41,982 bases of DNA from a virus, in the IMG/VR virus record IMGVR_UViG_3300031699_000003, positions 1 to 41,982 of that record; one strand, 5' to 3'. The notes under the pieces were generated by a model. The model did no database searches and was not told where the DNA came from. It was given only the letters and a program-made list of their open reading frames with translations. The translations under genes were made by a program, and so were the position numbers. This document shows, in pieces, positions 1 through 37,446 of this stretch (position 1 is the first letter of the stretch; each line of letters starts with the position of its first letter).

Positions 1-107
1 AGCGAATGGTGGCTCCGAAGCGGAGGCCCAAATTTGCCCTTATTGCAGTGGCGATCCTGTAATTGAATATTACGATAATAAATGGAAATGCTTTTATTGC
101 AATGGTA
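1..107 (+). repeat. Terminal direct repeat of the contig (same as 41876-41982)
   Basis: Bases 1-107 equal 41876-41982. Because the repeat also occurs at 2749-2855 inside the sequence, it may reflect circular closure, or assembly breakage at the duplicated attC-like module. The gene reading frame is continuous across the junction (41733 to 130), which favours true circularity or permutation. Confidence 0.9.
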
Positions 108-130
108 CGGGCAAACTTCACCATTCGTAA
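2..130 (+). CDS. C-terminal part of zinc-ribbon cassette protein (begins at 41733)
   Basis: This reading frame enters from the contig end and stops at TAA 128-130. The visible 42 residues contain CPYC and CFYC about 20 residues apart, a zinc-ribbon arrangement, followed by NGTGKLHHS. Joined with 41733-41982 it makes a protein of about 90 residues. The same 42 residues occur in the gene at 2534, coded by an identical DNA repeat, so the ribbon behaves as a shared C-terminal module carried on the attC-like site. Function unknown; zinc binding is inferred from the cysteines only. Confidence 0.75.
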   Translation, partial: ANGGSEAEAQICPYCSGDPVIEYYDNKWKCFYCNGTGKLHHS

Positions 131-195
131 AACGTTGTCGGCAATTCGGCCACCAAAACCGGCCCATCCGTGGGCCGGAGAATTGAAGGAGAGAG

Positions 196-366
196 ATGAT
201 AAAAAAGATTTTGGCTTTTTTTAGATTGAGTAAAACAGTGGTGTGTGAAGTATCTGCAAGCATGGGTGATTATGATTATCATGATTATCCAGACTCAATC
301 GATGGAGAGCCTTGGCACATGGTACTTTTAACGTGCAAGAGGTGCGGAAAGAGGTTTTATATATGA
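196..366 (+). CDS. Small hypothetical cassette protein with C-terminal CxxC (56 aa)
   Basis: Starts at ATG 196 behind GAAGGAGAG, ends at TGA 364-366. It has a basic, hydrophobic N-terminus (MIKKILAFFRL), an acidic Tyr/Asp-rich centre and CKRCGKRF at the end, half of a zinc knuckle. It is the first gene of the cassette starting at 134 and overlaps the next start in an ATGA-like arrangement, which implies translational coupling. The leader of this cassette (140-180) contains a GC-rich hairpin, CCGGCCCATCCGTGGGCCGG. No family recognised. Confidence 0.7.
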   Translation: MIKKILAFFRLSKTVVCEVSASMGDYDYHDYPDSIDGEPWHMVLLTCKRCGKRFYI

Positions 367-641
367 AAAAAACACATTGTGATATCTGCGATGTTGTAAT
401 CAACGATAAAAAAACAATCATCATTGAGAGGGAAAATAAAAAATTCAGGTTAACGGCGCAATACCTTACCGGAAACGGTAGGTGGAACCACATGTGGAAG
501 AATGTTGATATTTGCGATGTCTGTCTAATTTCTTTACTGGATAGCTTTGTGGAAGATCAAGAAAGCGCCGTCCCTGGCGCGGTGGCCGAACAGCCTACAA
601 CATCGCCATTATGCCAGCCGGAAGACCGGCCAGCACAATAG
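363..641 (+). CDS. CxxC hypothetical cassette protein (92 aa)
   Basis: I chose ATG 363, which overlaps the upstream stop and gives MKKTHCDICDVVINDKK; an earlier in-frame ATG at 312 lies inside the upstream gene without a ribosome binding site. Two CxxC pairs, CDIC near residue 6 and CDVC near residue 55, suggest one zinc site. The last 20 or so residues are low-complexity (PTTSPLCQPEDRPAQ) and are read through attC-like site c, so they probably reflect the recombination site and not a selected domain. Second gene of a two-gene cassette; function unknown. Confidence 0.75.
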   Translation: MKKTHCDICDVVINDKKTIIIERENKKFRLTAQYLTGNGRWNHMWKNVDICDVCLISLLDSFVEDQESAVPGAVAEQPTTSPLCQPEDRPAQ

Positions 642-656
642 CGCGGACAGTTATTT
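595..656 (+). other. attC-like site c (62 bp)
   Basis: The left core CTACAAC (595-601) and right core GTTATTT (650-656) enclose a long stem. ATCGCCATTATGCCAGCCGG pairs with CCGGCCAGCACAATAGCG through a GAAGA-like loop, with several mismatched or bulged bases. The length is close to the short class of attC. The stop codon of the gene at 363 lies inside the site. Confidence 0.8.
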
Positions 657-697
657 GCAATTTGCCTTTAAAATAATAGCCGCGCAAGGGAGGATTT

Positions 698-865
698 ATG
701 TCAATTGTTTATGAAGTTAAATGTGCTGGATGCGGAAAAGGTTTGGATGTTGAAAAAGTTTTTTTAGATTCTGCAGATGATCTTTGCGTTGAAGTTCACC
801 CATGTGAATATTGCGTTGAAGTAGCGCGGCAAGAAGGTAAGGAATCGGCAAACAGCGAAGCGTAG
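698..865 (+). CDS. Small two-CxxC cassette protein (55 aa)
   Basis: Starts at ATG 698 after GGGAGG and ends at TAG 863-865. It has CAGC near residue 9 and CEYC near residue 36, the spacing of a small zinc ribbon, with an acidic linker between. It is the only gene in the cassette starting at 650. Its last codons (KESANSEA) fall in the 35-bp conserved stretch that precedes the left core of sites d and a. Function unknown. Confidence 0.7.
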   Translation: MSIVYEVKCAGCGKGLDVEKVFLDSADDLCVEVHPCEYCVEVARQEGKESANSEA

Positions 866-881
866 CAAGAGGGCACAGCAC

Positions 882-1025
882 AAATAACAAATAAAGGGTG
901 GAAATGTGGCAACGATACACCTCAGGGACTACCTTTAATGGGACAGGTGTCATTAAGCGCAACCCGGTGCTATATCCGGGATAGTTCCCGCGTTGCCCCA
1001 CTTCACCCTTTATCAAACGTTGTGT
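882..1025 (+). other. attC-like site d (144 bp, probably not coding)
   Basis: The left core AAATAAC (882-888) and right core GTTGTGT (1019-1025) flank nested arms: AATAAAGGGTG with CACCCTTTATC, and inside them GTGGCAACG with CGTTGCCCCAC. The left core matches its own cassette start at 650 (GTTATTTG, 8 of 8). A 26-codon reading frame from the ATG at 904 to 984 sits between the arms, but it has only a weak GGGTGG before it and no recognisable product, so it is not called as a gene. Confidence 0.8.
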
Positions 1026-1056
1026 GCAATGTCAATTTTTCTGAAAGGATTATTAT

Positions 1057-1317
1057 ATGGCCGCTAAACCGAAGTTGAAGCCGTGCCCGTTCTGCGGTGG
1101 TAAGGCTGGAATATTTGGAAACGAACGTGACCACTTTTACGTGGCGTGTACTAATAAAGTATGCTTTTGTGCTTTGGGCGAAATGTATCTGCCTGGTGAC
1201 GAGCCTGACCACATGTTCGGTGATGAACCGTCTGCCGCGTACAATTGGAACGAGCGGCCTGAAGCTGTGGAAGGAAAAATTGACACGGCACACAACACGC
1301 GCAAGCCAAAACGGTAG
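1057..1317 (+). CDS. Lar-type restriction-alleviation-like zinc protein (86 aa)
   Basis: The N-terminal motif LKPCPFCGGKA, a second cysteine pair around residues 32-38 and the closing AAYNWNERPE match the Lar family layout (CPFCGG near the start and A-x-x-x-W-N-x-R near the end). Family members related to Rac prophage Lar can lower type I restriction; many phage members are untested. Starts at ATG 1057 with GAAAGGA upstream. The tail NTRKPKR is read into attC-like site e. A cassette-borne anti-restriction gene would suit a phage early operon, but that role is inferred from the family. Confidence 0.75.
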   Translation: MAAKPKLKPCPFCGGKAGIFGNERDHFYVACTNKVCFCALGEMYLPGDEPDHMFGDEPSAAYNWNERPEAVEGKIDTAHNTRKPKR

Positions 1318-1350
1318 AACCCGCATCGGCTATGCGCGGGAACGTTGGTG
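1290..1350 (+). other. attC-like site e (61 bp)
   Basis: The left core ACACAAC (1290-1296) and right core GTTGGTG (1344-1350) surround a stem of CGCGCAAGCC with GGCTATGCGCG. The left core with its flank, GGCACACAAC, is the exact reverse complement of the first bases of its own cassette at 1019 (GTTGTGTGC, 9 of 9). The Lar-like gene ends inside the site. Confidence 0.85.
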
Positions 1351-1412
1351 TCAATAAAATTTTGTCGGAATGAATTAAATAATAGCGCGCATAAGCAAAG
1401 AGAAAGACAAAT

Positions 1413-2114
1413 ATGAAAATATCATGGTTTAGCGCAGGAGTTTCAAGCGCTGTGGCAACAAAAATGGCAAACCCTGACCGTATTATATATTTCGACATTG
1501 AAGACCAGCACCCAGATACATACCGTTTTTTAAAAGATTGTGAAAAATGGTTTGAAAAAAAAATTGAGATTTATAAGTCTCCATATCGAAGCGTTGATAC
1601 GGTTTGTCGTGCGGTTCGATATTTAAATGGTCCCGCTGGCGCGGCGTGTTCACTTCGGTTAAAAAAATGGATGCGAAAAGAATGGGAGCAAAAAAACCCT
1701 GGTTGTCACACTTACATTTGGGGGTTTGATGGAACAGAAAAAAACAGAATGGAGCGCATTAAAGAATCTATTACGATGCATAACCACTTATTTCCACTAC
1801 ATGACAGAACGAAAGGTGAGGGACATGGTATTTTACGTCACGCTGGTATTTTACGTCCTGCTATGTACCGTATCGGTTTTCGGAATAATAATTGCATTGG
1901 ATGCTTACGAGGGGGGATGGGTTATTGGAACAGGATTAGGAGCCATTTCCCTGCTGTGTTTGCTTTTCGTTCTCACCTTGAGAGAGACATTGGGGCGCAC
2001 ATTTTAAAAGAATGTTATTTGGATGAGCTTGATCCAAAACGTGGGCGATTTGAAGATGAAATTTTTCCAGATTGCGGTCTATTCTGTGAAATCGAAGAAG
2101 GCGCGCAAGAATGA
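1413..2114 (+). CDS. PAPS-reductase-like PP-loop protein (233 aa)
   Basis: Residues 7-12 (SAGVSS) form the PP-loop that binds the nucleotide in the adenine nucleotide alpha-hydrolase superfamily; YFDIED and HPDTYRF follow. Near the end, NNNCIGC (158-164), GGMGYWNRIR and LDELDPKRG match a phage-encoded phosphoadenosine phosphosulfate reductase-like family. Proteins of this superfamily activate sulfate or sulfur, and relatives (DndC) act in DNA sulfur modification, but no dnd partners are present, so the substrate is unknown. This is the largest cassette gene and is followed 17 bp later by attC-like site f. The ribosome binding site is weak (AGAGAAAG). Confidence 0.75.
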   Translation: MKISWFSAGVSSAVATKMANPDRIIYFDIEDQHPDTYRFLKDCEKWFEKKIEIYKSPYRSVDTVCRAVRYLNGPAGAACSLRLKKWMRKEWEQKNPGCHTYIWGFDGTEKNRMERIKESITMHNHLFPLHDRTKGEGHGILRHAGILRPAMYRIGFRNNNCIGCLRGGMGYWNRIRSHFPAVFAFRSHLERDIGAHILKECYLDELDPKRGRFEDEIFPDCGLFCEIEEGAQE

Positions 2115-2131
2115 AGGTAAAATTTTACAGC

Positions 2132-2184
2132 CACCAACAAATGTGTTATGCAATTAAAACTGCATAACACATCGAACGTTGGTG
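2132..2184 (+). other. attC-like site f (53 bp)
   Basis: This is the clearest short site. The left core CACCAAC (2132-2138), the perfect 11 bp stem TGTGTTATGCA / TGCATAACACA and the right core GTTGGTG (2178-2184) follow each other, with asymmetric spacers between cores and stem as in attC. It lies 17 bp after the stop of the PP-loop gene and its left core matches the cassette start at 1344. Confidence 0.88.
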
Positions 2185-2216
2185 TCAATGCTTTTTAACT
2201 AAAGGAGTTCGCGCAA

Positions 2217-2477
2217 ATGTCAATTCAAGTAACAATAAAAGACGGTCATTTTATTACTCTTGATGAATTGGTTTCTATTGTCCCGCTTTCGGTTGCAGCA
2301 AAAGAATTAAAAGAGTTGCGCTCACGAATTAAGGATTTACGCTCACAAGACATCGGAACAAAAGCACAGGCCACCAACAAACAAAGTGTGCCATTAGAAA
2401 ATGTAATATGTCCTGACTGTAAATGCGATCGGGTACAATATCGTTGTTCAAATTGTGGTTTTGAGTGGTGCGACTAA
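2217..2477 (+). CDS. Zinc-ribbon cassette protein (86 aa)
   Basis: Starts at ATG 2217 after AAAGGAGTTCGCGC. Residues 1-45 are a coiled-coil-prone segment (AAKELKELRSRIKDLRSQ). A linker ATNK is encoded by the left core of attC-like site g, and residues 63-85 form a four-cysteine ribbon (CPDC, CSNC) ending FEWCD. The architecture is the same as in the genes at 2534 and 41733: variable N-terminus, ATNK linker from the attC core, zinc ribbon from the attC loop. Possibly nucleic-acid or protein binding; function unknown. Confidence 0.75.
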   Translation: MSIQVTIKDGHFITLDELVSIVPLSVAAKELKELRSRIKDLRSQDIGTKAQATNKQSVPLENVICPDCKCDRVQYRCSNCGFEWCD

Positions 2478-2503
2478 CGGCACACGTTTGTCACACGTTG
2501 CCG
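2372..2503 (+). other. attC-like site g (132 bp, coding)
   Basis: The left core CACCAAC (2372-2378) and right core GTTGCCG (2497-2503) are joined by ACAAAGTGTGCC on the left and GGCACACGTTTGT on the right, which pair fully apart from one bulged G. The intervening loop encodes the C-terminal zinc ribbon of the overlapping gene. The left core matches the start of its cassette at 2178 (GTTGGTG). Confidence 0.8.
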
Positions 2504-2533
2504 GAAATACAGGCTTATGAAAGGAGTTTTGGC

Positions 2534-2926
2534 GTGACAATTAAATCTACAACAGATAATTATGTTATGTGCGAATTGAACGGTGCAGATGAGTGCGGTA
2601 TTTGGCAATGGATGAGTAAAAGATTTGAAGGATGTAAGGTTGAAATTGAATTTGATACTGTTTTTAAAGGGTATCAGCCTGCTCCGACAATTTGGATTAG
2701 AGGTACGCCAAAACAGGGAGATCGGAACGGTGGGCCAGCCACCAACAAAGCGAATGGTGGCTCCGAAGCGGAGGCCCAAATTTGCCCTTATTGCAGTGGC
2801 GATCCTGTAATTGAATATTACGATAATAAATGGAAATGCTTTTATTGCAATGGTACGGGCAAACTTCACCATTCGCAACACGGTTGGTGTCAATCTGTTT
2901 TAACTATGAAAGGCGGCGCAAAATGA
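2534..2926 (+). CDS. Zinc-ribbon cassette protein, GTG start (130 aa)
   Basis: I place the start at GTG 2534, seven bases after AAAGGAG; a GTG at 2465 would add 23 residues across the attC-like site with no ribosome binding site. Residues 1-58 are a unique domain containing ELNGADECGIWQW. The linker ATNKANGGSEAEAQ and the CPYC/CFYC ribbon are encoded by the 127-bp repeat shared with the window ends. A CAA replaces the stop found in the other copy, so 15 residues run on beyond the ribbon into the next cassette. This looks like a fusion product of cassette exchange. Confidence 0.75.
   Translation: MTIKSTTDNYVMCELNGADECGIWQWMSKRFEGCKVEIEFDTVFKGYQPAPTIWIRGTPKQGDRNGGPATNKANGGSEAEAQICPYCSGDPVIEYYDNKWKCFYCNGTGKLHHSQHGWCQSVLTMKGGAK
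2740..2889 (+). other. attC-like site h (150 bp, coding, duplicate of site b)
   Basis: The left core is CACCAAC (2740-2746), the arms are CGAATGGTG and CACCATTCG, and the right core is GTTGGTG (2883-2889). 127 bases are identical to site b, and similarity continues upstream with two mismatches (GGGCCAGCCACC here, GGGCCTTCCACC there). Its left core does not match the start of the cassette it now ends (GTTGCCGG at 2497) but does match the cassette that carries site b, so this site was probably acquired from a relative of that cassette. Confidence 0.8.
2749..2875 (+). repeat. Internal copy of the zinc-ribbon/attC repeat (127 bp identical to 1-127)
   Basis: Exact duplicate of positions 1-127, coding for the same zinc ribbon in the same relative frame. 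The copies diverge one base after the right stem arm: TAA stop in the first copy, CAA in this one, so the protein here extends 15 residues further. Confidence 0.95.
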
Positions 2927-3132
2927 AAGCAAACAAACAAACCCCTGGCGTTGGAAAATATCTTAAATACCGCGCCGCCAAGAATTCGGAACCGGCCATC
3001 ATCCCACAACAACCGCTTTGTGGTTCGGCAAAGCCTTCACCCAAATGCTACTCCATCGGCTGTCCGGCTATTTGGCATGATAAATGTACGTCAACAATGT
3101 ACGGGAAGTGCGGTGTTCGTGATAGTGAGTAG
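2923..3132 (+). CDS. Cys-rich cassette protein (69 aa)
   Basis: Starts at ATG 2923, overlapping the previous stop (ATGA), and ends at TAG 3130-3132. The N-terminus is basic (MKANKQTPGVGKYLKYRAA). Residues 32-65 hold five cysteines, including CYSIGC, CTSTMYGKC and a preceding LCG, all encoded in the loop of attC-like site i. It is likely to bind zinc or iron through these residues. Function unknown. Last gene of array 1. Confidence 0.65.
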   Translation: MKANKQTPGVGKYLKYRAAKNSEPAIIPQQPLCGSAKPSPKCYSIGCPAIWHDKCTSTMYGKCGVRDSE

Positions 3133-3159
3133 CACTTCACAAAGCGTCGGACGTTAAAA
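3004..3159 (+). other. attC-like site i (156 bp, coding)
   Basis: The left core CCACAAC (3004-3010) and right core GTTAAAA (3153-3159) flank CCGCTTTGTG / CACAAAGCG stem arms. The loop codes for the Cys-rich C-terminus of the gene at 2923, whose stop is just before the right arm. The left core, with flank TCCCACAAC, does not match the start of its own cassette (GTTGGTGTC at 2883) but is identical to the left core of site k. Confidence 0.75.
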
Positions 3160-3178
3160 AGGAAGGGCTGAATAACCC

Positions 3179-3526
3179 GTGCGAATCACAATAAGAAAAA
3201 CAACATATACCGAGCAGCTTAAAGATCCGAGATGGAAAAAAAAGCGGATAAAAATTCTGCACCGGGATGGATTTAAATGCGTCAAGTGCGGATCGAGAAT
3301 CAGAATACAGGTGCATCACTTAATTTACCGGAAAGGTCTTGCGCCGTGGGAATACCAGGACAACGAGCTGGAAACACAATGCTTCAAGTGTCACAGGAAA
3401 TTCCACGTCAAGGATATGCGGGGAAAAAGAAACACGAAAAAAAAGAAGTTATTCAAGGCCAGCAAAAAACGATTTTTGAATCTCAAAAAACGGGACAGCG
3501 GAAGGGTTCAAAACAATGACACCTGA
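3179..3526 (+). CDS. HNH endonuclease-type protein (115 aa)
   Basis: The core CVKCGS, then QVHHLIYRKG, then ELETQCFKCHRKFH (about residues 34-80) is a classic HNH fold with two zinc-binding CxxC pairs and a His-His metal centre. The C-terminus is Lys/Arg-rich and probably binds DNA. The start is GTG 3179 with GGAAGG 13 bases upstream. In podoviruses a free HNH protein can assist terminase, but here it is in the early cluster and far from terL, so a recombination or homing role is equally possible. First gene after array 1. Confidence 0.8.
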   Translation: MRITIRKTTYTEQLKDPRWKKKRIKILHRDGFKCVKCGSRIRIQVHHLIYRKGLAPWEYQDNELETQCFKCHRKFHVKDMRGKRNTKKKKLFKASKKRFLNLKKRDSGRVQNNDT

Positions 3527-4498: not shown

Positions 4499-4864
4499 AT
4501 GAATGATCGTTTAGATAGAGCAATACAGAAAGTTCTTGAATGGTTTGCTACTTTCCCGCGTACTCTTAAAATACAGGATGAACAATGGAAGCCTATAGCC
4601 CAGGAATTGGCTGCGGCTGCCAGCAGTTCCCATGAACCGGCCAGGAAGGAAGGCTGGATCTCAGTTAAGGATCGGTTGCCAAGTAAAGATGGAACCTGGT
4701 TTTTATGCGCCCACAAATATGTAACGGAATGGGTATACACTCAGGTTCGTTATGGGTCTTATCATCCGAACGCAAAGGGTAAAGAGTGTTTTCGAGATAT
4801 ATCTGGACACAAAGTGAATGCGTTTTTGTATTGGCAACCACTATCAGAACCACCAAAGGAGTGA
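4499..4864 (+). CDS. DUF551-containing early protein (121 aa)
   Basis: The C-terminal half has the DUF551 hallmarks: GWISVKDRLPSKDG near residues 51-64 and FLYWQPLSEPPKE at the end. DUF551 is common in phage and prophage early regions and has no settled function. The N-terminal 45 residues are helical (DRLDRAIQKVLEWFATF). ATG 4499 follows AAGGAGTGATGGG with 15 bp to the upstream stop. Confidence 0.75.
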   Translation: MNDRLDRAIQKVLEWFATFPRTLKIQDEQWKPIAQELAAAASSSHEPARKEGWISVKDRLPSKDGTWFLCAHKYVTEWVYTQVRYGSYHPNAKGKECFRDISGHKVNAFLYWQPLSEPPKE

Positions 4865-4867
4865 GGA

Positions 4868-5116
4868 ATGGCTTATTTCAGTAACGGAACAGAAGGCGAA
4901 GTATTTGATAATCAATGTCTTAAATGTAAGTATGGAGAAAAGCCGTGTCCGATTGCAGGGGTTCAAATGGAATACAATTATGATGCCTGTAATAACGAGG
5001 TTGCCAGCAAAATACTAAACGATCTGGTAAAACAGGACGGAACGTGTGTCATGTTTAAAATGTTTGAGGATGATTTTTTCAATGATCCTAACCAGATAAA
5101 TTTATTTAAGCAGTAA
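4868..5116 (+). CDS. Hypothetical phage protein with CxxC motifs (82 aa)
   Basis: CLKCKYGEKPCPI near residues 17-29 and two later cysteines (YDACNNE, GTCVMF) suggest a metal site. The sequence ends with an acidic, Phe-rich segment (EDDFFNDPNQINLFKQ). It is the type of small phage protein often seen near replication genes. ATG 4868 has AAAGGAG upstream. No function can be assigned. Confidence 0.65.
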   Translation: MAYFSNGTEGEVFDNQCLKCKYGEKPCPIAGVQMEYNYDACNNEVASKILNDLVKQDGTCVMFKMFEDDFFNDPNQINLFKQ

Positions 5117-5133
5117 GGGAATAAGGAGGAAAC

Positions 5134-5601
5134 ATGAGTCAAAACGATCAAATTTTCGCATATCTCAAAAAGGGCAACACGTTGACCGCACTTGAAGCCT
5201 TGGATCTGTTCGGGTGCATGAACCTTAAAGGCCGAATAAACGAGCTGAAAAAAGACCACGATATTGATAAAAAAATGGTAAAAACGCGGTCTGGAAAGCG
5301 GGTTGCTCGGTATTTCTACAAAACGGCACCACAGCCAGAGGTTCAAAATCAAGCCAAACCGACGGAAACCGCCCCCTCGTCAGCGTTACACGGACAACCC
5401 TTAGCGGAGGGCATCGAGACACGGCCCCCGCTTAAAACGCCTGAAAATGGCTTGAGGGTTTGCAAACTGGAAGCCTGCAGACGGGAATTCCTGCCAAAAA
5501 CATATAATCAGCTTTTTTGCTGCAAACAACATAAAGATTATTTCTATAATAACACAAAAGCGGAGGCATACAAGGCTTTTCGTTTCAGGGGGCAAATATG
5601 A
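5134..5601 (+). CDS. HTH and zinc-knuckle protein (155 aa)
   Basis: Residues 10-50 (LTALEALDLFGCMNLKGRIN, then ELKKDHDIDKK) form a winged-helix-like helix-turn-helix of the type used in small phage DNA-binding proteins. Residues 65-100 are a Pro/Ala/Thr linker. The C-terminus has CKLEACRREF and LFCCKQHKD, a cysteine-based zinc finger. ATG 5134 follows AAGGAGG. A DNA-binding regulator or replication accessory protein is likely, but its target is unknown. Confidence 0.65.
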   Translation: MSQNDQIFAYLKKGNTLTALEALDLFGCMNLKGRINELKKDHDIDKKMVKTRSGKRVARYFYKTAPQPEVQNQAKPTETAPSSALHGQPLAEGIETRPPLKTPENGLRVCKLEACRREFLPKTYNQLFCCKQHKDYFYNNTKAEAYKAFRFRGQI

Positions 5602-5930
5602 TCATGGTCTATGTGGCAAGCCCATACACATTAGGAGATACTGGCGAGAACGTCAGGGCGCAGCTCGAAACGGGCGACAAGCTCATGGATATGGGATACT
5701 GCCCCATTCTCCCGCTGTTGACTCACTTTCAGCACATCCACAAACCAAGACCATATTGCGATTGGATGGCAATAGACGTGGAAAAGATAAGGCGGTGCGA
5801 TGTTCTCCTGCGGCTTCCGGGGCAGTCTAAGGGTGCGGATGATGAGGTCGAGTGTGCCACAAAACTAAAAATTCCGGTCGTCTATTCAATTACGGAATTA
5901 ACGAACACAACGAAAGGATGGAAGAAATGA
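5598..5930 (+). CDS. DUF4406-like nucleoside deoxyribosyltransferase-fold protein (110 aa)
   Basis: The N-terminal YVASPYT, the central CDWMAIDVEKIRRCDVLLRL and SKGADDEVECA near residue 78 match the DUF4406 or nucleoside 2-deoxyribosyltransferase-like layout. In that fold the N-terminal strand and the acidic E-x-x-x-A helix line the nucleotide pocket. Phage copies are thought to act on nucleotides or nucleotide sugars. It overlaps the upstream gene by 4 bp and the downstream nucleotide hydrolase by 4 bp, which supports a nucleotide-metabolism pair. Confidence 0.7.
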   Translation: MIMVYVASPYTLGDTGENVRAQLETGDKLMDMGYCPILPLLTHFQHIHKPRPYCDWMAIDVEKIRRCDVLLRLPGQSKGADDEVECATKLKIPVVYSITELTNTTKGWKK

Positions 5931-6451
5931 AATTTATGCCAAAAATAGGTGAGAAAGTTATCGTGAACCGCCAAAACTGCTGTTGGGCTGTAAACCAGGC
6001 CGGAGAGGTTGGGATTGTCGCCAGAATAGAAAATGATTCTTTCGGAGTGTTAATGAAAAGCGGGGATATTTATTTTCACAAAATGGGATGTCTTTCGTTG
6101 TTGGGCGCGCAAACACTTGGGATTGTTCAAGATCCGAAAGATAAAGAAGTAGACCCGAAACTGGGCCGCAAATTCGACCAGGAAAAACCGCGCTGGGACC
6201 TGCTGCCGTGGGAACAGGTCGAGGAAGTGGTCAAGGTGCTGACCCACGGAGCGAAAAAATATGACGACGACAACTGGCAGAAAGTGCCGGATTCCAAACG
6301 CAGATATTTTGCCGCACTCCATCGGCACCTGAACGCATGGCACAAAGGTGAAAAGCTGGACAAAGATTCAAACCTTCCGCATCTGGCAAGTGTTGTCTGT
6401 TGTGCGCTTTTCCTCATGTGGCACGACGAGGTGCAAAATGAAAAAATCTGA
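5927..6451 (+). CDS. MazZ/DUF5664-type dATP/dGTP pyrophosphohydrolase-like protein (174 aa)
   Basis: I chose ATG 5927 (nine bases after AAGG, ATGA overlap with the previous stop). Residues 80-170 contain GRKFDQEKPRWDLLPWEQ, LTHGAKKYDDDNW, RYFAALHRHLNAW and SNLPHLASVVCCALFL, the DUF5664 pattern. Known members (MazZ) hydrolyse dATP/dGTP, in some phages to favour 2-aminoadenine DNA. No purZ is visible here, so base replacement is not supported. Residues 1-65 form a separate small domain resembling an SH3-like barrel (KIGEKVIVNRQ, GEVGIVARIEND) fused to the enzyme. Confidence 0.7.
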   Translation: MKFMPKIGEKVIVNRQNCCWAVNQAGEVGIVARIENDSFGVLMKSGDIYFHKMGCLSLLGAQTLGIVQDPKDKEVDPKLGRKFDQEKPRWDLLPWEQVEEVVKVLTHGAKKYDDDNWQKVPDSKRRYFAALHRHLNAWHKGEKLDKDSNLPHLASVVCCALFLMWHDEVQNEKI

Positions 6452-6773
6452 CATGTTATTGATTGCCGGTTTCCTGTTTGTGATCGCCTCGGGGTTTATT
6501 TTTATCGACAAATACGACCGATGGGAAGCGGCACAACATGAACAGGTTTTTTACCCGGAACCCACGCCTCACATTCGCGGCATATTCGACACAACCGTTG
6601 ACACGACCGGATTCGGTGAAATGGCGAGAAGGGCCAACGAGATCGACCGCATTATTTTAGGCGGAAAAATGAGGGAGCGCGACCTGGAACTTGATAAGGA
6701 AAAACAACTCATTGAGCACCGGGTGAGAATGGAAGGTCAATACGGGGTATACCGGAGAAAGGATAAAGAATGA
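6438..6773 (+). CDS. Single-pass membrane hypothetical protein (111 aa)
   Basis: ATG 6438 overlaps the preceding gene by 14 bp. MKKSDMLLIAGFLFVIASGF is an N-terminal membrane segment. The rest is hydrophilic and helical (MRERDLELDKEKQLIEHRVR), probably coiled coil on one face of the inner membrane. It could be a small inner membrane accessory protein; no family recognised. Confidence 0.65.
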   Translation: MKKSDMLLIAGFLFVIASGFIFIDKYDRWEAAQHEQVFYPEPTPHIRGIFDTTVDTTGFGEMARRANEIDRIILGGKMRERDLELDKEKQLIEHRVRMEGQYGVYRRKDKE

Positions 6774-7030
6774 AGTGCAACAACGATAAAATAATTATGA
6801 GCCAGATTGAATTTTTCTTTATTGTTTTTATCGCCGTGACTCTCGGTATCATGTGCGGAAAAACCGTGTCAGATGTGAAGATGACCAGGAAATTCCCGGA
6901 GTTGATGCTTCCGACAAAATCCGAGGTGATCCTTGACGGGAAATTATCAGACAAGGAAATAAAGGAGGGACTGTATGAAAACGACTCAGCAGAGAAAGAC
7001 AGCGGGGTTTGCGATGTCGATTCTATTTGA
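6770..7030 (+). CDS. Small membrane protein (86 aa)
   Basis: Starts at ATG 6770 in an ATGA overlap with the previous gene; ATG 6797 is an alternative start. Residues 12-30 (IEFFFIVFIAVTLGIMCGK) are a membrane segment. The last 19 codons overlap the gene starting at 6975 in another frame, and the C-terminal sequence there looks unselected, so the functional part is probably the first 65 residues. Function unknown. Confidence 0.55.
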   Translation: MKCNNDKIIMSQIEFFFIVFIAVTLGIMCGKTVSDVKMTRKFPELMLPTKSEVILDGKLSDKEIKEGLYENDSAEKDSGVCDVDSI

Positions 7031-7136
7031 CCGATGGCTGAAAGACTTGACCGCCGCGCTGGAGGTTATGACAGCATCGGAAAAGGCAAAGCTGCGGCAA
7101 GTCGTGCTGAAGGGAACCAGACCGGGGAGGCGTTAA
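6975..7136 (+). CDS. Small basic protein (53 aa)
   Basis: ATG 6975 is preceded by AAAGGAGGG, the best ribosome binding site in this part, and the frame stops at TAA 7134-7136, one base into the next start (TAATG). The sequence is basic and helical (MSILFDRWLKDLTAALEVM, ASEKAKLRQVVLKG). It overlaps the 3' end of the 6770 gene by 56 bp. Function unknown. Confidence 0.6.
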   Translation: MKTTQQRKTAGFAMSILFDRWLKDLTAALEVMTASEKAKLRQVVLKGTRPGRR

Positions 7137-7372
7137 TGGACGCTAAAAAAGAATTTAAAAAATATTGGAACGATTTAAAATGTTCCGGGTTGGATGAAAC
7201 CACCATTTACGGGTTTGTGTTTAGGGCATGGCACGCAGGACACGAAACCGCCACAAAAGAAAATTCACAACATGGAAAATGTCAACATTGGGATGGCGAC
7301 AGAGATTGCTTTGTTGGTTTAGTGAGCCACCGATGCAAGCACCCTGACAGAATTAAGTGGTTAAATCAATAA
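7136..7372 (+). CDS. Hypothetical protein with Cys/His pairs, last early gene (78 aa)
   Basis: ATG 7136 overlaps the preceding stop by one base (TAATG) with GGGGAGG just upstream. It contains AWHAGHETA, then GKCQHWDGDRDCF and HRCKHPDRIKW: a Cys/His set that could hold one zinc. The stop at 7370-7372 overlaps the stop region of the convergent late gene by 7 bp, so the two clusters meet here with no terminator between them. Confidence 0.65.
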   Translation: MDAKKEFKKYWNDLKCSGLDETTIYGFVFRAWHAGHETATKENSQHGKCQHWDGDRDCFVGLVSHRCKHPDRIKWLNQ

Positions 7373-9024
7373 GCCTCACCGAGCCGCTTTTCCGGTTTGT
7401 CGAAAGGCTGATTCCGAAAAGACCGCTTTCTGAATTTCATCATGCGGAACACTTCTGAATCTGACGGGCAAAACCCGAGAGCGTCATAAACGGTCAGATC
7501 GCCAATCTCGCGAAAGGTAACTGTTGTTATAGTGTCTGTCCAGTTAATTGAATCGGCACGCACAGAGTCTCCTTGTGTTGCTTGTAGGCTGTCAGGGATT
7601 CCTACGCAAACAGAATCATAATAAATTGTGTCAGAGTAATTTGTATCGTAAGTCGCCACCCACAATTCATCAGCACCGATTGACGGCGGGGAAGCCATAG
7701 TGTTTCCGCGAATACCAAGGGTGTTTTCTGTAATTGATGCAGCCCCGCCAGCACCGTCAAGGCTTCCGTCTTTTAACTTTAAAAAGTACGGACTTGTTTT
7801 GTCCGTGCTTACAACCTCGTCACCAATGGTAATTTCAGTTACCGCATTATTGTCCGTTGCCGCTCCAACTGCTACGGCATCGGTAGCACAGTTATTTGAT
7901 ATTGAATTTGTATTATCTAAAAAGTTAGCATCGTTAGAAGAAAACAGGCAGTTATCAAATACCATTGCTACGTCGCCATTGTTTACAGCTAAACTACAAT
8001 TATGAAAATTACAGTTTTCAATTTCTGAACTACCACCAATAACACTCAGAAGCAATGCTCCGTCGCCGGTTCCAATAAAATCATAAAAAACAGAATTATA
8101 TGCTTCATACTTTGTAGACGCATCAGATAATTGCAACCCCACACCTTCAGTTTTCGAGTTACCATCAAAAAAACAGTCATTCACTATAGCACTTGCAGAT
8201 GACGTTTGATAAATAAGAACCATAGTATAATTTGAAGAAGGTGTGCCCGTTCTTTTGAATCTTAAATCTTGGACAACTATTTTTCCGGTGCCAGAATTAT
8301 TAAACCACAAGCAATAACCATTACCAATGTTTACACTAATTAAATAACCAGCCGTTACATCGCCATTATGCGGAGAGTCGGACCTAACAATTATATCATA
8401 GGTGCTATTGTTTTCAGTAATCCGCGCTGTTGCCACTTCTTCTATACTTGACACAACTGTGGTAGTGCATCCACCAGTAAACGTAGCGGCTACGTCATCC
8501 CAGGCCACTGCAAGAGTCGCATAAGAACCACCGCTTCCAACTGTCGAATCACCGATTGACCATGTGAATCTGTCTTCAATTATTGGATTACTGACTGCCG
8601 ATTTTAACTTTATCAAGTCAGTATATTTTTTTTCTTTTGGTAGGATGATTTCTGATTTTCCATCATGGAAGTTTTCGGCCCATTTATCATCTGCTAATGT
8701 ATCTTCCATCGCATTATAATCAACTCTATATTTATCTGTTGTGTCTTCAACAACGGATTTAATTGTTGCCAAGTCCTTCCTTGGAACGGGCATGTATTTA
8801 AAAGCATGGTTAACATTTCTTAAAATATATTCTCCATTCTGCCCCCAGGCGGCGGGATCAATATAGTCTATGATCTTGCCTTCTGTATTGATGGAAACAA
8901 AAATATACGAATCGTCCACCGGGGCCGCGCCAGCTTTAAAAAACAGCCCGGCCATGATCGCCGCCATGAATGCAAACAAAATTAAGTCGCTAACAAATCC
9001 AGAATGCCGCTTCCTTGAGTTCAT
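7366..9024 (-). CDS. Beta-solenoid fibre-like protein with signal-type N-terminus (552 aa)
   Basis: Residues 18-34 are a hydrophobic segment ending GAAPVDD, like a Sec signal peptide. The body has repeated short strands rich in N, S, T, D and G (DGNSKTEGVGLQLSDAS, SEIENCNFHNCSL, MVFDNCLFSSNDAN), typical of right-handed parallel beta-helix tail fibres and pectate-lyase-fold proteins. The C-terminus is basic (FRKRSFRNQPFDKPEKR). It is the last late gene, after the lysis-like group. Either a receptor-binding fibre or a secreted adhesin or lyase; I cannot tell which. Confidence 0.65.
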   Translation of the reverse strand: MNSRKRHSGFVSDLILFAFMAAIMAGLFFKAGAAPVDDSYIFVSINTEGKIIDYIDPAAWGQNGEYILRNVNHAFKYMPVPRKDLATIKSVVEDTTDKYRVDYNAMEDTLADDKWAENFHDGKSEIILPKEKKYTDLIKLKSAVSNPIIEDRFTWSIGDSTVGSGGSYATLAVAWDDVAATFTGGCTTTVVSSIEEVATARITENNSTYDIIVRSDSPHNGDVTAGYLISVNIGNGYCLWFNNSGTGKIVVQDLRFKRTGTPSSNYTMVLIYQTSSASAIVNDCFFDGNSKTEGVGLQLSDASTKYEAYNSVFYDFIGTGDGALLLSVIGGSSEIENCNFHNCSLAVNNGDVAMVFDNCLFSSNDANFLDNTNSISNNCATDAVAVGAATDNNAVTEITIGDEVVSTDKTSPYFLKLKDGSLDGAGGAASITENTLGIRGNTMASPPSIGADELWVATYDTNYSDTIYYDSVCVGIPDSLQATQGDSVRADSINWTDTITTVTFREIGDLTVYDALGFCPSDSEVFRMMKFRKRSFRNQPFDKPEKRLGEAY

Positions 9025-9101
9025 TGTGAATACCTGTTCCTTTTAATAGGCACAACATTAATAAAATGGCTGAAATTATTATCAGTTTTTTTATAAGATT
9101 T

Positions 9102-9353
9102 TTACCCTCTGGATTGACCATTGAGCTTCCCTTCTATCCGACCAATTGCACGCAGAATCTCTCCCTGCTGTTCGACAAATTTATCAAACTTCGCGTAGAC
9201 TTCGACTGATTTCTTATGGCATATTTCCCGGTGTGTCTCATGGTCGATTAGGTTAAGCATCTTGCCTTTTACCAGACCCCATGAAACCCCGCCTGCGATT
9301 GCTGCCGGGACCAAAGTGATCCCACCCCAGAAAGCCATTTCAATGCCGGTCAC
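9102..9353 (-). CDS. Small membrane protein with coiled coil (83 aa)
   Basis: Residues 5-28 (EMAFWGGITLVPAAIAGGVS) form one membrane segment. The rest is hydrophilic and helical (SVEVYAKFDKFVEQQGEI, RAIGRIEGKL), probably a coiled coil. It overlaps the upstream gene by 4 bp. Size, topology and position next to the peptidoglycan-active genes fit a lysis accessory, such as a holin partner, but no family match can be claimed. 9025-9101 holds no gene that I can support. Confidence 0.55.
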   Translation of the reverse strand: MTGIEMAFWGGITLVPAAIAGGVSWGLVKGKMLNLIDHETHREICHKKSVEVYAKFDKFVEQQGEILRAIGRIEGKLNGQSRG

Positions 9354-9601
9354 GGGATCACCCTGTCCTTTCCTTCGTCTTCCTCGATGGCATCAATTGA
9401 GTGGTTGTCGTCCACAAGTTCAAGAAACCTGTCTATGACTGCCGGGATTGGTTTGTAAAACGGGATTGATCCACCGTGGCGACGTTTAATCTTTCCAATG
9501 CGGGAACTGACCGTCTCATCCGGGTCTCCCCCGGTCAGCGCGTTTCCGAGCTGGTCAAGTCCGATCAAAACGTTAAGGATGTATTTTCCCAGTTTTTTCA
9601 T
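9350..9601 (-). CDS. Conserved small phage protein with GGDPDET motif (83 aa)
   Basis: The motif IGLDQLGNALTGGDPDETVS (residues 13-32), followed by RIGKIKRRHGG, recurs in small proteins of the lysis regions of many Gram-negative phages, as I recall. Their function is not established. The N-terminus is basic then hydrophobic, suggesting membrane association; the C-terminus is acidic (DAIEEDEGKD). It lies between the Pal-like protein and the small membrane protein. Confidence 0.65.
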   Translation of the reverse strand: MKKLGKYILNVLIGLDQLGNALTGGDPDETVSSRIGKIKRRHGGSIPFYKPIPAVIDRFLELVDDNHSIDAIEEDEGKDRVIP

Positions 9602-9608
9602 AATTCAC

Positions 9609-10112
9609 CTACTCCAGAATTGTGAAAGTGAATTCATCCCTCCGGTCATCAGCGAGCGTCGGCCCCTGCGGTTCCATCTCGCCCATTGACACAACAGAGA
9701 TCCGGTCTTCGTCGATTCCTCGGTTTGACAGATAGAGCTTTGCCGCGAGTCCACGGTGCTGACCCAGGGCCATGTTATACTCAAAACTTCCGATCCGGCA
9801 TGTGTGTCCCTCGATCAAAAGTTTGGAGTTCGGCTTGTCGATCATCTCTTTGTATATTTTATCCAGCTCGACCATGCTGCCCTCTCGGAGCGTCCACTTG
9901 TCAAAGTCGAAATAAATCTGGAACGGATACGAAACCTCGAACTCCTGTTTTTCCACTTCCTTTTCAACCTGTGGAGCCGGTACAACGGCTTCAGGCTCAG
10001 ACGATATAGCGTTTTCCAAAGTGTCTTCATATAATTTTTTTTTAGAGCAATCGGTTAAAATTCCAACGAGCAACACGCAAACAAAAACAATCGAATCACG
10101 TTTCCAGTTCAT
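9609..10112 (-). CDS. Pal/OmpA-type peptidoglycan-binding protein (167 aa)
   Basis: Residues 1-22 (MNWKRDSIVFVCVLLVGILT, then DCSKK) look like a signal peptide with an atypical lipobox (Asp before the Cys). Residues 60-165 are an OmpA C-terminal domain: YFDFDKWTLREGS, IEGHT, EYNMALGQHRGLAAKLYL, RISVVSMGE. In the family the motif GHTD provides the Asp that contacts peptidoglycan; here it reads GHTC, while the Arg (QHRG) is kept. Sitting among lysis-like genes, it might bridge or disturb the outer membrane-wall link, perhaps in place of a spanin. That role is inference. Confidence 0.75.
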   Translation of the reverse strand: MNWKRDSIVFVCVLLVGILTDCSKKKLYEDTLENAISSEPEAVVPAPQVEKEVEKQEFEVSYPFQIYFDFDKWTLREGSMVELDKIYKEMIDKPNSKLLIEGHTCRIGSFEYNMALGQHRGLAAKLYLSNRGIDEDRISVVSMGEMEPQGPTLADDRRDEFTFTILE

Positions 10113-34402: not shown

Positions 34403-35281
34403 ATGAAAGACCTGAAACCAGGAATTTATACAGATATTCCGTTCGACGAATACCTGGATCTGCCTTGCTTCTCAAAGTCTTTTGTCGATCCGATCCTGAA
34501 AAGCCCGAAACACCTAAAGCATTATTTTTCGGAAAAACAAAAGTCTTCCCCGATCATGGCATTCGGCTCCCTTGTCGATGCCCTGTTGCTTGACCAGAAA
34601 GAAGTTGAACGGCGGTTTTTCAAAATCCCCGATACCTACATCAACGGAAAAGGCGAGGAAAAACCCTGGAACATGAATTCCAAATCGTGCAAACAGGCCA
34701 TTGCGGATGCGGTGGAAGCAGGGAAAGACTGCCTGAAACAAGCTGACTACGACCGGGCAGAGCTGGTCGTCAAAGCGATCATGGAACACCCCACAGCATC
34801 AAAGTGGCTCGGCGGCAAACACCAGGTTACAATAATCTGGAAAGACCCTGCAACCGGCGTGATGTGCAAAGGCCGACCGGATATTCTGATCGAGGGCGAG
34901 CGAGTGGTGGATCTGAAATGCACGGACGACCCAACACCGGGGAAATTCTCTCGGGTCGCCACGAACCTGAAGTATTATGTCCAGGCTTCAATGTACCTCG
35001 ACGGTCTGCATTGCGCTGAAACCGGCACCTATCAGACCGAGTGGAAAATTCCGTTTTCGTTCATCGCGGCTGAAGTCACCGAGCCGTTCGATGTGGTCCC
35101 GTATAACATGGAAGTCGAGAGCCTTGAAGCCGGGCGGGTGATCTTCCAGAAAGCCATCGAGCTTTATGCAGATTGTCAGTCAACAGGCCAATGGCCTGGA
35201 TATTCAAACTATGCCGAATCCCTGGAGATTCAGCAATGGGCACTCCATAAAATTTTATATGAGGGGGACAATAATGTCTAA
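34403..35281 (+). CDS. RecE-like PD-(D/E)xK exonuclease (292 aa)
   Basis: Residues 157-160 GRPD, 170-172 DLK and 194-198 QASMY give the D...D-x-K...Q-x-x-x-Y pattern of the RecE/exodeoxyribonuclease VIII-type PDDEXK family. MAFGSLVDALLL near residue 53 and HHL-like YFSEKQKSSP precede it. It chews 5' ends to make 3' single strands for annealing. It overlaps recT by 8 bp, the standard exonuclease-annealase pair. Confidence 0.75.
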   Translation: MKDLKPGIYTDIPFDEYLDLPCFSKSFVDPILKSPKHLKHYFSEKQKSSPIMAFGSLVDALLLDQKEVERRFFKIPDTYINGKGEEKPWNMNSKSCKQAIADAVEAGKDCLKQADYDRAELVVKAIMEHPTASKWLGGKHQVTIIWKDPATGVMCKGRPDILIEGERVVDLKCTDDPTPGKFSRVATNLKYYVQASMYLDGLHCAETGTYQTEWKIPFSFIAAEVTEPFDVVPYNMEVESLEAGRVIFQKAIELYADCQSTGQWPGYSNYAESLEIQQWALHKILYEGDNNV

Positions 35282-36086
35282 AAGTCTCATTCCAGTAATA
35301 GAAACGAACGCCAAACTTGAAAAGATAGCCGGGACCACAAACATGACAGCCGAGCAGGTGGCAATCGTGAAAAGCACGGTCGCAAAGAACACAACCGACC
35401 TGGAGCTGGCTTATTTTCTCAACGTGTGCCGGGTGACTGAGCTTGATCCTTTCATGAAAGAAATATGGTGTTATAAGGATAAAAAGGGAAACATGATCGT
35501 CTTTGCCGGTCGTGATGGGTTTCTTAAAAAAGCACAGAAAAACCCTGCCTTCAGTGGTATCCGGTCAAGCGAAATCAGGGAACGCGACGAGTATTCAATT
35601 GACATTCCAAACGGTAAGATCGAACACAAAATCACAGCGTTTGGTGATGAACGTGGAAAAATCATTGGTGCTTATGCGATCGTGTTTCGCAAAGAAGGAG
35701 AGCCAACGATTGAGCTTGTCGAGTTCGACACATACAATAAAAAGTACAACGCATGGGCGACACACCCCGCAGACATGATTAAAAAGGTAGCTGAGGCCCA
35801 CGCTCTTAAAAAGGCAATGGGGATCAGCAACCTTCAACTTGAAGACGATTACCGGATTCGCAGCGGGGTCGCACTTCCAGGTGGGAAAATTAAGTTCGAC
35901 CTGATAGACGAGATCGCCGATCTTCGCAAGGATGTTCAGCAGGGTTTGAATAATGAGGATTGGATTGAACAAGTCTGCATGTTGGAGTTCGGCCACGGGA
36001 AACCGAGAACCAAGGGGGAGGAAGCCCACATCAAAGAAGTTATTTCCAGCGAAAAATATAATCTTGAAACCGGGGAGTTAAAATAA
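35274..36086 (+). CDS. recT: RecT-family single-strand annealing protein (270 aa)
   Basis: Starts at ATG 35274 (GGGGG upstream); an earlier ATG at 35166 is inside the exonuclease gene. Contains DPFMKEIWCYKDKKGNMIVF, then AGRDGFLKKAQKNPAF and YNAWATHPADMIKKVAEAHA, LKKAMGISNLQLEDDY, all typical of RecT. It anneals complementary single strands during recombination or replication. Its stop is 23 bp before the start of cassette array 2. Confidence 0.8.
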   Translation: MSKSLIPVIETNAKLEKIAGTTNMTAEQVAIVKSTVAKNTTDLELAYFLNVCRVTELDPFMKEIWCYKDKKGNMIVFAGRDGFLKKAQKNPAFSGIRSSEIRERDEYSIDIPNGKIEHKITAFGDERGKIIGAYAIVFRKEGEPTIELVEFDTYNKKYNAWATHPADMIKKVAEAHALKKAMGISNLQLEDDYRIRSGVALPGGKIKFDLIDEIADLRKDVQQGLNNEDWIEQVCMLEFGHGKPRTKGEEAHIKEVISSEKYNLETGELK

Positions 36087-36131
36087 AAACAAGGGCATCT
36101 TTTGGACAGTTGTGGGAAAGGAGCCTATAAA

Positions 36132-36419
36132 ATGAAAATCGCGGCCTATGAAAAGTATCCGGTTCGAGAATGTCGTTCAATGCACTCATGTGCTGAGTGT
36201 GGTAAAGATATTAAACTTGGTGATTTTTACAGGGATGGAGGCTACGGTCGTCGGGTGCATGAAATTTGCTTTCAGGCCGCGAAGATGGAAAAGGAATATA
36301 AGGAATCGGCTCCCATCCCACAACAAACGAATGGTGAAACCTGTACATGTCATTTGATGGGCGGCGGTAAAATGTGTAAGCATTGCCTTAATAAAATAAT
36401 TGGTGGTACTTTTATATAG
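36132..36419 (+). CDS. Cassette protein with two zinc-type Cys sets (95 aa)
   Basis: ATG 36132 follows AAAGGAGCC. RECRSMHSCAECGKDIKLGD near residues 12-33 is a zinc knuckle also seen in other phage proteins. The C-terminus ETCTCHLMGGGKMCKHCLNK is encoded within attC-like site k. First cassette of array 2. Confidence 0.65.
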   Translation: MKIAAYEKYPVRECRSMHSCAECGKDIKLGDFYRDGGYGRRVHEICFQAAKMEKEYKESAPIPQQTNGETCTCHLMGGGKMCKHCLNKIIGGTFI

Positions 36420-36445
36420 GCATCACCATTCGTCGCACGTTGTAT
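36318..36445 (+). other. attC-like site k (128 bp, coding)
   Basis: The left core CCACAAC (36318-36324) and right core GTTGTAT (36439-36445) flank arms CGAATGGTGA and TCACCATTCG, which are also the arms of sites b and h. The loop encodes a Cys-rich C-terminus. The left core with flank, TCCCACAAC, is the exact reverse complement of its cassette start GTTGTGGGA at 36109. Confidence 0.85.
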
Positions 36446-36489
36446 GCAAAAATCGCTTACCATAATAGCCGGGAGCTAAGGAGGTACAA

Positions 36490-36693
36490 ATGGATAAACA
36501 GGTAGTTTCAATTAATGGCGGTCATGCGGTAAAAGATGGAGATTCATTGCATCTTTATCGGGATGTCGGAGATAGGTTTTCACGGTATCACGGTTTTCAT
36601 ATTTTTCGCGCCGATTTAATTAAAATATTACCTTTGTTTGACATTAAAATTTTGGTTGAAAATGAAAAGCATAACGACGATTTACCTTTCTAA
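36490..36693 (+). CDS. Small cassette protein (67 aa)
   Basis: ATG 36490 follows AAGGAGGT. Sequence SINGGHAVKDGDSLHLYRDV then GFHIFRADLIKILPLFDI, beta then helix. No Cys pairs. The gap to the next site (36694-36752) carries a 35-bp motif shared with sites a and d but no gene. Confidence 0.6.
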   Translation: MDKQVVSINGGHAVKDGDSLHLYRDVGDRFSRYHGFHIFRADLIKILPLFDIKILVENEKHNDDLPF

Positions 36694-36752
36694 TCCGCTC
36701 CCGGCAGAGATCGGAACGCGATTTCAGAGAAGCGTAGCAGGGAGTAAGGCAC

Positions 36753-36810
36753 ATACAACAAGCCGAAGTGATGCCATTAAAACAGGCACACATTCGGCAG
36801 CACGTTCTGT
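36753..36810 (+). other. attC-like site l (58 bp)
   Basis: The left core ATACAAC (36753-36759) and right core GTTCTGT (36804-36810) flank arms GCCGAAGTGATGCC and GGCACACATTCGGC, with two mismatches. The left core matches its cassette start GTTGTATG at 36439. About 60 bp separates it from the stop of the upstream gene. Confidence 0.82.
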
Positions 36811-36840
36811 GCAAGCCGGGCTAATTAAAGGAGCGCGCCA

Positions 36841-37152
36841 ATGAATTTTATTAATCGTAAAAAGGTAAAAACAAGGAAGCCACATTATTGTACTGGCTGT
36901 ATGGATATTATTCCATCGGGGTCAATGGTAATTCGAGACACTCTTGTCGATGGTGAAATATATTCCGTTTATTTTTGTGATATTTGTGAAAAGGTTTTGG
37001 AAGAATATGGAAATGATATTGAGGAATTTTCAGAAGGTGATTTACGTGAAACAACTGTTTATGAATATTGGTATAAAAAGAGGCGCGCTGAGAAATCGGA
37101 ACGCCCGGCCAACACAGAACAGCGTCATGGTGCAATTAAAAAAGCACCATAA
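36841..37152 (+). CDS. Zinc-knuckle cassette protein (103 aa)
   Basis: ATG 36841 follows AAAGGAGCGCGCC. HYCTGCMDIIPSGSMVIR, then VYFCDICEKVLEEYG gives two CxxC pairs 40 residues apart, as in a family of phage proteins that begin with a chelating pair. The tail (ANTEQRHGAIKKAP) runs through site m. Function unknown. Confidence 0.65.
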   Translation: MNFINRKKVKTRKPHYCTGCMDIIPSGSMVIRDTLVDGEIYSVYFCDICEKVLEEYGNDIEEFSEGDLRETTVYEYWYKKRRAEKSERPANTEQRHGAIKKAP

Positions 37153-37167
37153 CGCAACACATTAACC
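37114..37167 (+). other. attC-like site m (54 bp, A in place of core G)
   Basis: The left core ACAGAAC (37114-37120) and right core ATTAACC (37161-37167) flank GCGTCATGGTGC / GCACCATAACGC. The left core matches the cassette start GTTCTGTG at 36804 over 8 bases. The A at 37161 replaces the G next to the expected crossover, so this site may no longer be a good substrate. Confidence 0.78.
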
Positions 37168-37197
37168 AAAATACCGGCTTATGAAAGGAGTTCGCTT

Positions 37198-37446
37198 GTG
37201 GATGATTTGAAATTAGAAGCATGTAAAACGTGCGGTGGAATTCCAGCAGTTGTAACTTATAACTCTGGTCAAAAATTAATCAGGTGTAAGTGCGGAATGC
37301 AGACAAGTACCAAGTTAACAGTTCGTGCTGCTGCCGATATTTGGAATGGTTATCATGAGCCTTCGTTAAAGGAAGTAATGGTCGATCTTTTATCTGAAAT
37401 ACGCTCACTAAATCAGCGGAACGCCGGTCCTTCGGTTAACAAATAA
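37198..37446 (+). CDS. Lar-like zinc protein, GTG start (82 aa)
   Basis: GTG 37198 follows AAAGGAGTTCGC. ACKTCGGIPAVV, then IRCKCG near residue 28 and VRAAADIWNGYH near residue 45 give the CPxCGG ... C-x-C ... A-x-x-x-W-N pattern of the Lar-like family. A likely role is countering type I restriction, as in the cassette at 1057. Two independent Lar-like cassettes in one genome are notable. Its tail is encoded in site n. Confidence 0.6.
   Translation: MDDLKLEACKTCGGIPAVVTYNSGQKLIRCKCGMQTSTKLTVRAAADIWNGYHEPSLKEVMVDLLSEIRSLNQRNAGPSVNK

Follow-up and report, generated by a model that had tools for sequence, protein, structure and literature searches.

Fourteen Small Gene Cassettes in Two Arrays of a Phage Genome: Evidence for Integron Cassettes without an Integrase Gene

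The Phage Contig and Its Two Arrays

The window, i.e., the whole stretch of DNA that was analyzed (41,982 nucleotides), is a virus record, IMGVR_UViG_3300031699_000003, in which the first 107 bases are the same as the last 107 (41876–41982 is identical to 1–107). Judged by this 107-bp terminal overlap, the contig is probably circular, with a length of 41,875 bp. The phage genes in the window are those for the terminase subunits, the major head protein, RecT, exonuclease VIII, and a DnaB-type helicase. In the early region, where the phage early genes are co-directional, there are 14 small cassettes in two arrays: array A, with five cassettes (36109–37926), directly after recT (35166–36086); and array B, with nine, which begins at 41399 behind the helicase gene, crosses the origin, and ends at 3153. 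All units follow one plan, i.e., GTT, a leader with a ribosome-binding site, one or more small ORFs, and a hairpin (the attC) between AAC and GTT. The features are listed below, all on the plus strand; where two sequences are separated by a slash, the first is the cassette start and the second is its own left core.

36109–37926, array A (A1–A5), between recT (35166–36086) and the ORF at 37927
36109–36438, A1: GTTGTGGGA / TCCCACAAC; ORF 36132–36419, 31 codons into the attC
36439–36803, A2: GTTGTATG / CATACAAC; ORF 36490–36693
36804–37160, A3: GTTCTGTG / CACAGAAC; ORF 36841–37152, two CxxC
37161–37556, A4: (A)TTAACC / GGTTAAC; ORF 37198–37446
37557–37925, A5: GTTGTGGC / GCCACAAC; ORF 37597–37923, 42 codons into the attC
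41399–41982, left part of array B (B1 and most of B2), in which 41876–41982 is the terminal overlap
1–3153, right part of array B (end of B2, then B3–B9)
41399–41684, B1, first of array B: start GTTATTTT; ORF 41437–41703; left core AAATAAC, AAC at 41638
41685–41982 and on to 133, B2: ORF 41733 to 130, its C-terminal two-CxxC part within the attC
134–649, B3: ORFs 196–366 and 363–641; left core CCTACAAC, own match 3/4; attC to the GTT at 650
650–1018, B4: start GTTATTTG; ORF 698–865 (55 aa, two CxxC); left core CAAATAAC, AAC at 886; attC to the GTT at 1019
1019–1343, B5: start GTTGTGTGC; ORF 1057–1317 (Lar); left core GCACACAAC, AAC at 1294
1344–2177, B6: PAPS-reductase-like ORF 1413–2114 (phrog_424); attC a near-perfect hairpin, arms 2141–2155 and 2158–2172
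2178–2496, B7: ORF 2217–2477, 32 codons beyond the left core, its two-CxxC end within the attC
2497–2882, B8: mosaic, with a leader like that of A4 and a tail and coding attC like those of B2; own-core match 2/4
2883–3152, B9, last of array B: ORF 2923–3132, 40 codons beyond the left core; own-core match 2/4

The flank after B9 is TTAAAAAGG. Array A opens at a junction without a hairpin (ggacaG^TTGTGGG), and its last R′ is GTTGTCC. When the flanks of array A are joined (36100–36112 + 37924–37935), the result, tggacaG^TTgtcca, is an inverted repeat (arms of 6 bp) and possibly the original insertion site of the array; joining the flanks of array B gave no such inverted repeat.

The overlap sequence sits within an attC that is also present at 2749–2855. 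As this attC occurs twice, the joins B2–B3 and B8–B9 could in principle be B2–B9 and B8–B3; the circle was possibly closed on the repeat, and B3–B8 could form a circle of their own. The apparent closure is thus not independent proof against an assembly artefact that fused a bacterial integron to a phage. Such an artefact is nevertheless very improbable: the two arrays occupy separate positions among the co-directional early genes, the contig encloses array A completely, and the cargo is from phage families. Searches of IMG/VR by DnaB and by large terminase found no relatives of the phage, hence no related phage with a differing array, in which movement would be seen directly. Array B had no DNA similarity to sequenced phages, and patterns composed of tail and leader had no matches in IMG/VR.

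Cassette Starts Match Their Own Cores

An integron cassette is the stretch from the TT of one boundary up to the G of the next, and in the circle the start of the cassette meets its own R″ core. Each cassette thereby regains its own R″/R′ pair, and the starts are therefore expected to match their own cores. Consistent with this, the attC of a cassette has been defined as its circular form (PMC2674596), and self-pairing of 9–11 nt has been noted for most cassettes (PMC2727003).

The first-pass annotation had claimed that this relation holds in the phage, with twelve of fourteen pairs agreeing over the variable bases or all but one. Each of the 14 units was scored by comparing the four bases after GTT with the reverse complement of its own left core, and the pairing was confirmed, with a mean of 3.64/4. 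All starts and left cores that had been named were found at, or a few bases from, the places given for them, and the count was exact: 11 units match at 4/4 and B3 at 3/4, while B8 and B9 match at 2/4. In the 11 perfect units the match extends for 4–6 bases beyond GTT. The accompanying estimate of a 1-in-256 chance match per pair proved too optimistic, as 10% of the non-own pairs are perfect, due to the recurrence of GTTGGTG. Nevertheless, when cassette order was permuted, none of 200,000 permutations reached the observed mean, nor did any of 500,000 after removal of the GTTGGTG group. Own pairs scored 3.64, against 1.64 for non-own pairs and 1.75 for neighbors on either side; the core of one cassette with the start of the following one, i.e., the single hairpin as found in the array, also scored 1.75, no better than non-own pairs. 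In the remainder of the phage (3.2–36 kb), there was no such unit at a stem score of at least 9.

The exceptions are instructive. Cassette A4 opens with ATT rather than GTT, yet pairs with its own core (TTAACC), the deviating base being the one that belongs to the upstream cassette. The attC of B8 is a near-exact copy of that of B2, and the core of B9 equals that of A1, which likely explains the mismatches of these two cassettes. As B2 starts with GTTGGTG, the mismatch of B8 is what would be left by swapping in the attC of another cassette.

Own-core matching is best read as the relation expected of units that passed via a circle, in which G plus the cassette's own TTxxxx closes on R″. The signature itself is textbook integron biology and already known. 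It records past movement and says nothing on present activity. Furthermore, it is strand-symmetric: it shows that the R boxes around one ORF belong together, not which of the two hairpins travels with that ORF.

Structure and Polarity of the attC Sites

All 14 sites have R″ (...AAC) and R′ (GTT...) cores around an imperfect palindrome with L″ and L′ arms, and their geometry is uniform (14/14), with an R″–L″ spacer of 1–4 nt and an L′–R′ spacer of 4–6 nt. R′ is GTT in 13 sites and ATT in one. The bottom strands fold into hairpins in which the R boxes pair, with a central spacer and a tip that varies; with the cassette's own start in place of that of its array neighbor, the bottom strand was more stable in 12/14 attCs, by a mean difference of 2.1 kcal/mol. 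Together, this folding and the own-core matching support the proposal that these are integron cassettes with a circular intermediate.

In known attCs, the choice of strand is set by an extrahelical base (G) on the L″ arm. Such a base is clear on the canonical arm in only 2/14 sites (B1, B4), so recombination may be weak; three sites (A5, B5, and B7) have an extra base on the opposite arm, A2 has one on each arm, and 8/14 have none. Asymmetry of the central spacer is present in all 14. With a position matrix derived from integrase-linked attCs, the left halves of the sites scored above background (p = 8e-6) and the right halves did not. A search with an attC pattern picked up only one record (L207), which was set aside because the match is a coding repeat that lacks the structure of a cassette. 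At its variable tip (37467–37541), the attC of A4 resembles the 3′ half of a tRNA (GGTTCGACTCC...GCCA), for which neither ARAGORN nor Rfam gave a match.

The symmetry of the signature leaves room for the opposite polarity, in which the mobile unit would be the upstream hairpin plus the following ORF and recombination would take place at the left core (AA^C), and the extra bases of A5, B5, B7, and two attCs of another viral array (L004, see below) are on the arm that this predicts. It is nonetheless an improbable arrangement. Firstly, in A1, A5, B2, B7, B8, and B9 the ORF continues in frame beyond its own left core, into the downstream attC, by 31–59 codons (the final codons of B8 falling within the next cassette). 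Secondly, the identity between B2 and B8 includes the upstream tail, extends over the attC, and breaks off within the L′–R′ spacer. Thirdly, the first junction of both arrays is a hairpin-free G^TT, and both arrays end with an attC. Array-start junctions, in-frame ORFs, and the shared module of tail plus attC all point to normal attC polarity.

Every hairpin lies between genes of one orientation, as would be expected of transcription terminators or RNA elements, and the matched ends could then be long-range RNA pairing without recombination. This is very unlikely, given that the matches end 4–6 bases past a fixed GTT/AAC, that the spacing from hairpin to GTT is fixed, that no T run follows the hairpins (read by eye), that six ORFs extend more than 30 codons into the hairpin, that Rfam gave no match, and that the same signature is found beside integron integrases (see below).

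Cargo and Reassortment of Cassette Parts

The ORF of B5 belongs to the Lar restriction-alleviation family (PF14354, 41.5 bits; cut-off 28.6), that of A4 is weakly Lar-like (19.2 bits, under the cut-off), and CxxC motifs are present in 11/14 cassettes. The cargo (Lar, PAPS reductase, and many small CxxC proteins) looks selected for infection. Several kilobases of the phage are given over to small exchangeable genes, including at least one from a family that counters host restriction, and the Lar cassette implies that counter-defence genes may travel as cassettes.

The tail and attC of B2 and B8 have 137 bases in common and differ at two places in the tail and at two in the L′–R′ spacer, such that one 137-bp coding attC core is common to two different ORFs. 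The leader of B8 matches that of A4 just behind the variable core. Across the cassettes, 24/91 leader pairs and 8/91 tail pairs were above the 99% null. These comparisons indicate that leader, ORF, and tail plus attC reassort among cassettes, and RecT-mediated annealing at the short homologies of leaders and tails is a plausible cause. A coding attC that is in frame in two proteins, together with reassorting leaders and tails, bears on the long-standing question of the origin of cassettes.

Classification and Proposed Mechanism

A complete integron has intI with an adjacent attI, and the record holds no such combination: there was no PF00589 (tyrosine recombinase) match in six frames of the record, and the attI pattern of viral integrons (see below) had no match in the window. 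A CALIN has at least two clustered attC-like sites and no integrase gene nearby, and the phage has 14 sites in two clusters. The boundaries, the own-core matching, the attC folding, the absence of an integrase gene, and the cargo families are direct observations, and the reading built on them, held with a probability of about 0.87, is that these are two integron cassette arrays without an integrase, i.e., a phage CALIN, on which an integrase would act in trans and whose circles would arise by attC × attC recombination. Phage CALINs have already been published (PMC9892861), and the present phage is a rich further example rather than a new type of system. The greatest surprises are that two proteins share a coding attC, that leaders and tails reassort, and that complete integrons occur on viral contigs (see below).

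The proposed sequence of events is as follows. The host, or a second phage or prophage sharing the cell, would provide an integron integrase in trans, and this enzyme would recombine attC with attC at G^TT and so release a cassette as a circle. Circles would then insert at G^TT, the first of them at non-attI sites in gaps between phage genes and later ones beside earlier cassettes. The cassettes would be expressed by read-through of phage transcription, and may still be active. RecT, encoded beside array A, could swap ORFs or attC modules via short homologies, which would have produced the mosaic B8. That phage-borne attCs can serve as substrates is known from virulent phages, whose attCs were recombined by IntI1 in E. 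coli (PMC9892861).

A rather less probable history, though one to be taken seriously, is that the arrays are relics of a single homologous or illegitimate capture from a host chromosomal integron, diversified now by RecT only, without site-specific recombination. The absence of an integrase gene, the position of recT directly before array A, the excess of similar leaders and tails, the mosaic B8, the loss of the own-core match in two cassettes, and the canonical extrahelical base being mostly missing would all suit such relics. On the other hand, 12/14 own-core pairs differ at one base at most, as would fit cassettes recently descended from functional ones; the cargo (Lar, PAPS reductase) is phage-like; and two separate arrays need two captures or a later split. 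Cassette arrays served by an integrase in trans are the preferred reading.

Comparison with Known Phage and Bacterial Integrons

The CALINs of virulent phages (Tetrasphaera phage TJE1, Pseudoalteromonas phage PH101, and Polaribacter phage P12002L; Qi et al. 2023, PMC9892861) likewise consist of attC-bounded cassettes with no integrase gene, and those of TJE1 and PH101 are co-directional, as here. With respect to restriction, their cargo includes methyltransferases, whereas here it is Lar. In contrast to those CALINs, the present phage has two arrays and 14 cassettes, with small CxxC proteins, Lar, and PAPS reductase, and its attCs are long and coding, mostly without an extrahelical base on the L″ arm. 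Recombination of the virulent-phage attCs has been shown in an attC × attI assay (PMC9892861). Cassettes of bacterial sedentary chromosomal and mobile integrons have the same G^TT boundaries, complementarity of their own R″ and R′, and usually one ORF plus an attC, but the phage differs from bacterial integrons in having no intI and no recognizable attI, and in the carrier being a phage. Complete integrons of temperate phages (Vibrio Va_90-11-286_p16 and Va_PF430-3_p42, Shewanella M16-3, and Escherichia P1; PMC9892861) are also arrays on phage DNA, but they carry an integrase, which the present phage does not; the array of Va_90-11-286_p16 was described as a subset of the chromosomal integron of its host (PMC9892861).

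Relatives of the PAPS-Reductase Cassette and Integrons on Viral Contigs

Relatives of the B6 protein are encoded at 80 viral loci. In 71 of these, with flanks of 220 bp, matched cores with a run of at least 7 surround the PAPS-reductase gene at 6/71 loci, versus 0.1 expected from cross-locus pairs; two of the six (L042 and L067) have identical cores and may be one case. At L004, in a record that is viral by IMG/VR's call only, the B6 relative is 60% identical and lies in an array of four or more such units, whose attCs have the geometry seen in the phage. Another locus, L002, is a contig of a Desulfobacterales MAG. A search for an integrase in L004, L075, L002, and the other PAPS-reductase records found only L011 over the cut-off.

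L011 is a 5.6-kb viral contig in which a B6 relative lies between matched cores. Its integron integrase (2205–3182) is over the NCBIfam cut-off and has RusA-like, replication-initiation, and DnaC-like genes as neighbors. Fifteen further contigs (L112–L126) were retrieved with an alignment that included cellular integrases of the taxonomic class to which the L002 MAG belongs, and together with L011 they form one integrase clade (SH-aLRT 100), 15/15 tested being over the cut-off. Just before the integrase gene there is an attI-like site of ~40 nt, conserved in the 15 aligned; its pattern occurs in 17 stretches of the viral collection, 8 of them in contigs of the clade. As for phage hallmarks, a large terminase is encoded in 7/16 integrase records, and L124 has a terminase and a portal. 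The cassettes of the clade contigs include DNA methyltransferase genes. Following the PAPS-reductase cassette thus led, as a separate lead, to complete integrons (attI, IntI, and array) on viral contigs. The genes common to the window and the integrase-bearing contigs are only the PAPS reductase and weak matches.

In arrays beside the integrase genes of viral contigs there were 93 own-core matches, versus 4 in shuffled sequence. One cassette of L125 occurs twice together with its attC (7758–8470 and 9207–9915), with matching cores bounding both sides, and this duplicate reveals what moves as one unit on a viral contig with an integrase. Reversed cassettes were considered for arrays of the L124 type and dropped: the L125 duplicate and the hairpin-free junction at intI correspond to the usual polarity, with ORFs in both directions.

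Tentatively, and with the odds somewhat against it, phages might keep a cassette economy of their own, in which a lineage with complete integrons and integrase-less phages share a pool of infection-related genes. If so, this pool would comprise DNA methyltransferases, Lar, PAPS reductase, and small CxxC proteins; the phage integrase (the clade of L011 and L112–L126, with its conserved attI) would act in trans on CALIN phages; and the reassortment of leaders, tails, and coding attCs would mean that new cassettes form within phage genomes.

Among sequenced phages, the L124 integrase matched the four temperate phages with published integrons and Virus Rctr41k (L208, KX853513.1), as well as others with weaker, partial similarity. 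Rctr41k carries, at 4680–10095, a gene annotated as xerD whose product is similar to integron integrases (39.7% to the L124 enzyme), and behind it six cassettes in a chain, none of them annotated, which include methyltransferase genes (shuffled mean, 0.3 matches). This is apparently a complete integron in a GenBank phage, and a search of a literature collection found no paper that names Rctr41k. The own-core test, which exposed these cassettes as well as the arrays beside integrases on many viral contigs, is thus a cheap finder of cassette arrays. Among the other integrase-bearing contigs, which are putatively viral (L127–L190), there are four (L157, L172, L174, and L175) in which the array follows the integrase gene and points the same way, whereas the usual layout is divergent.
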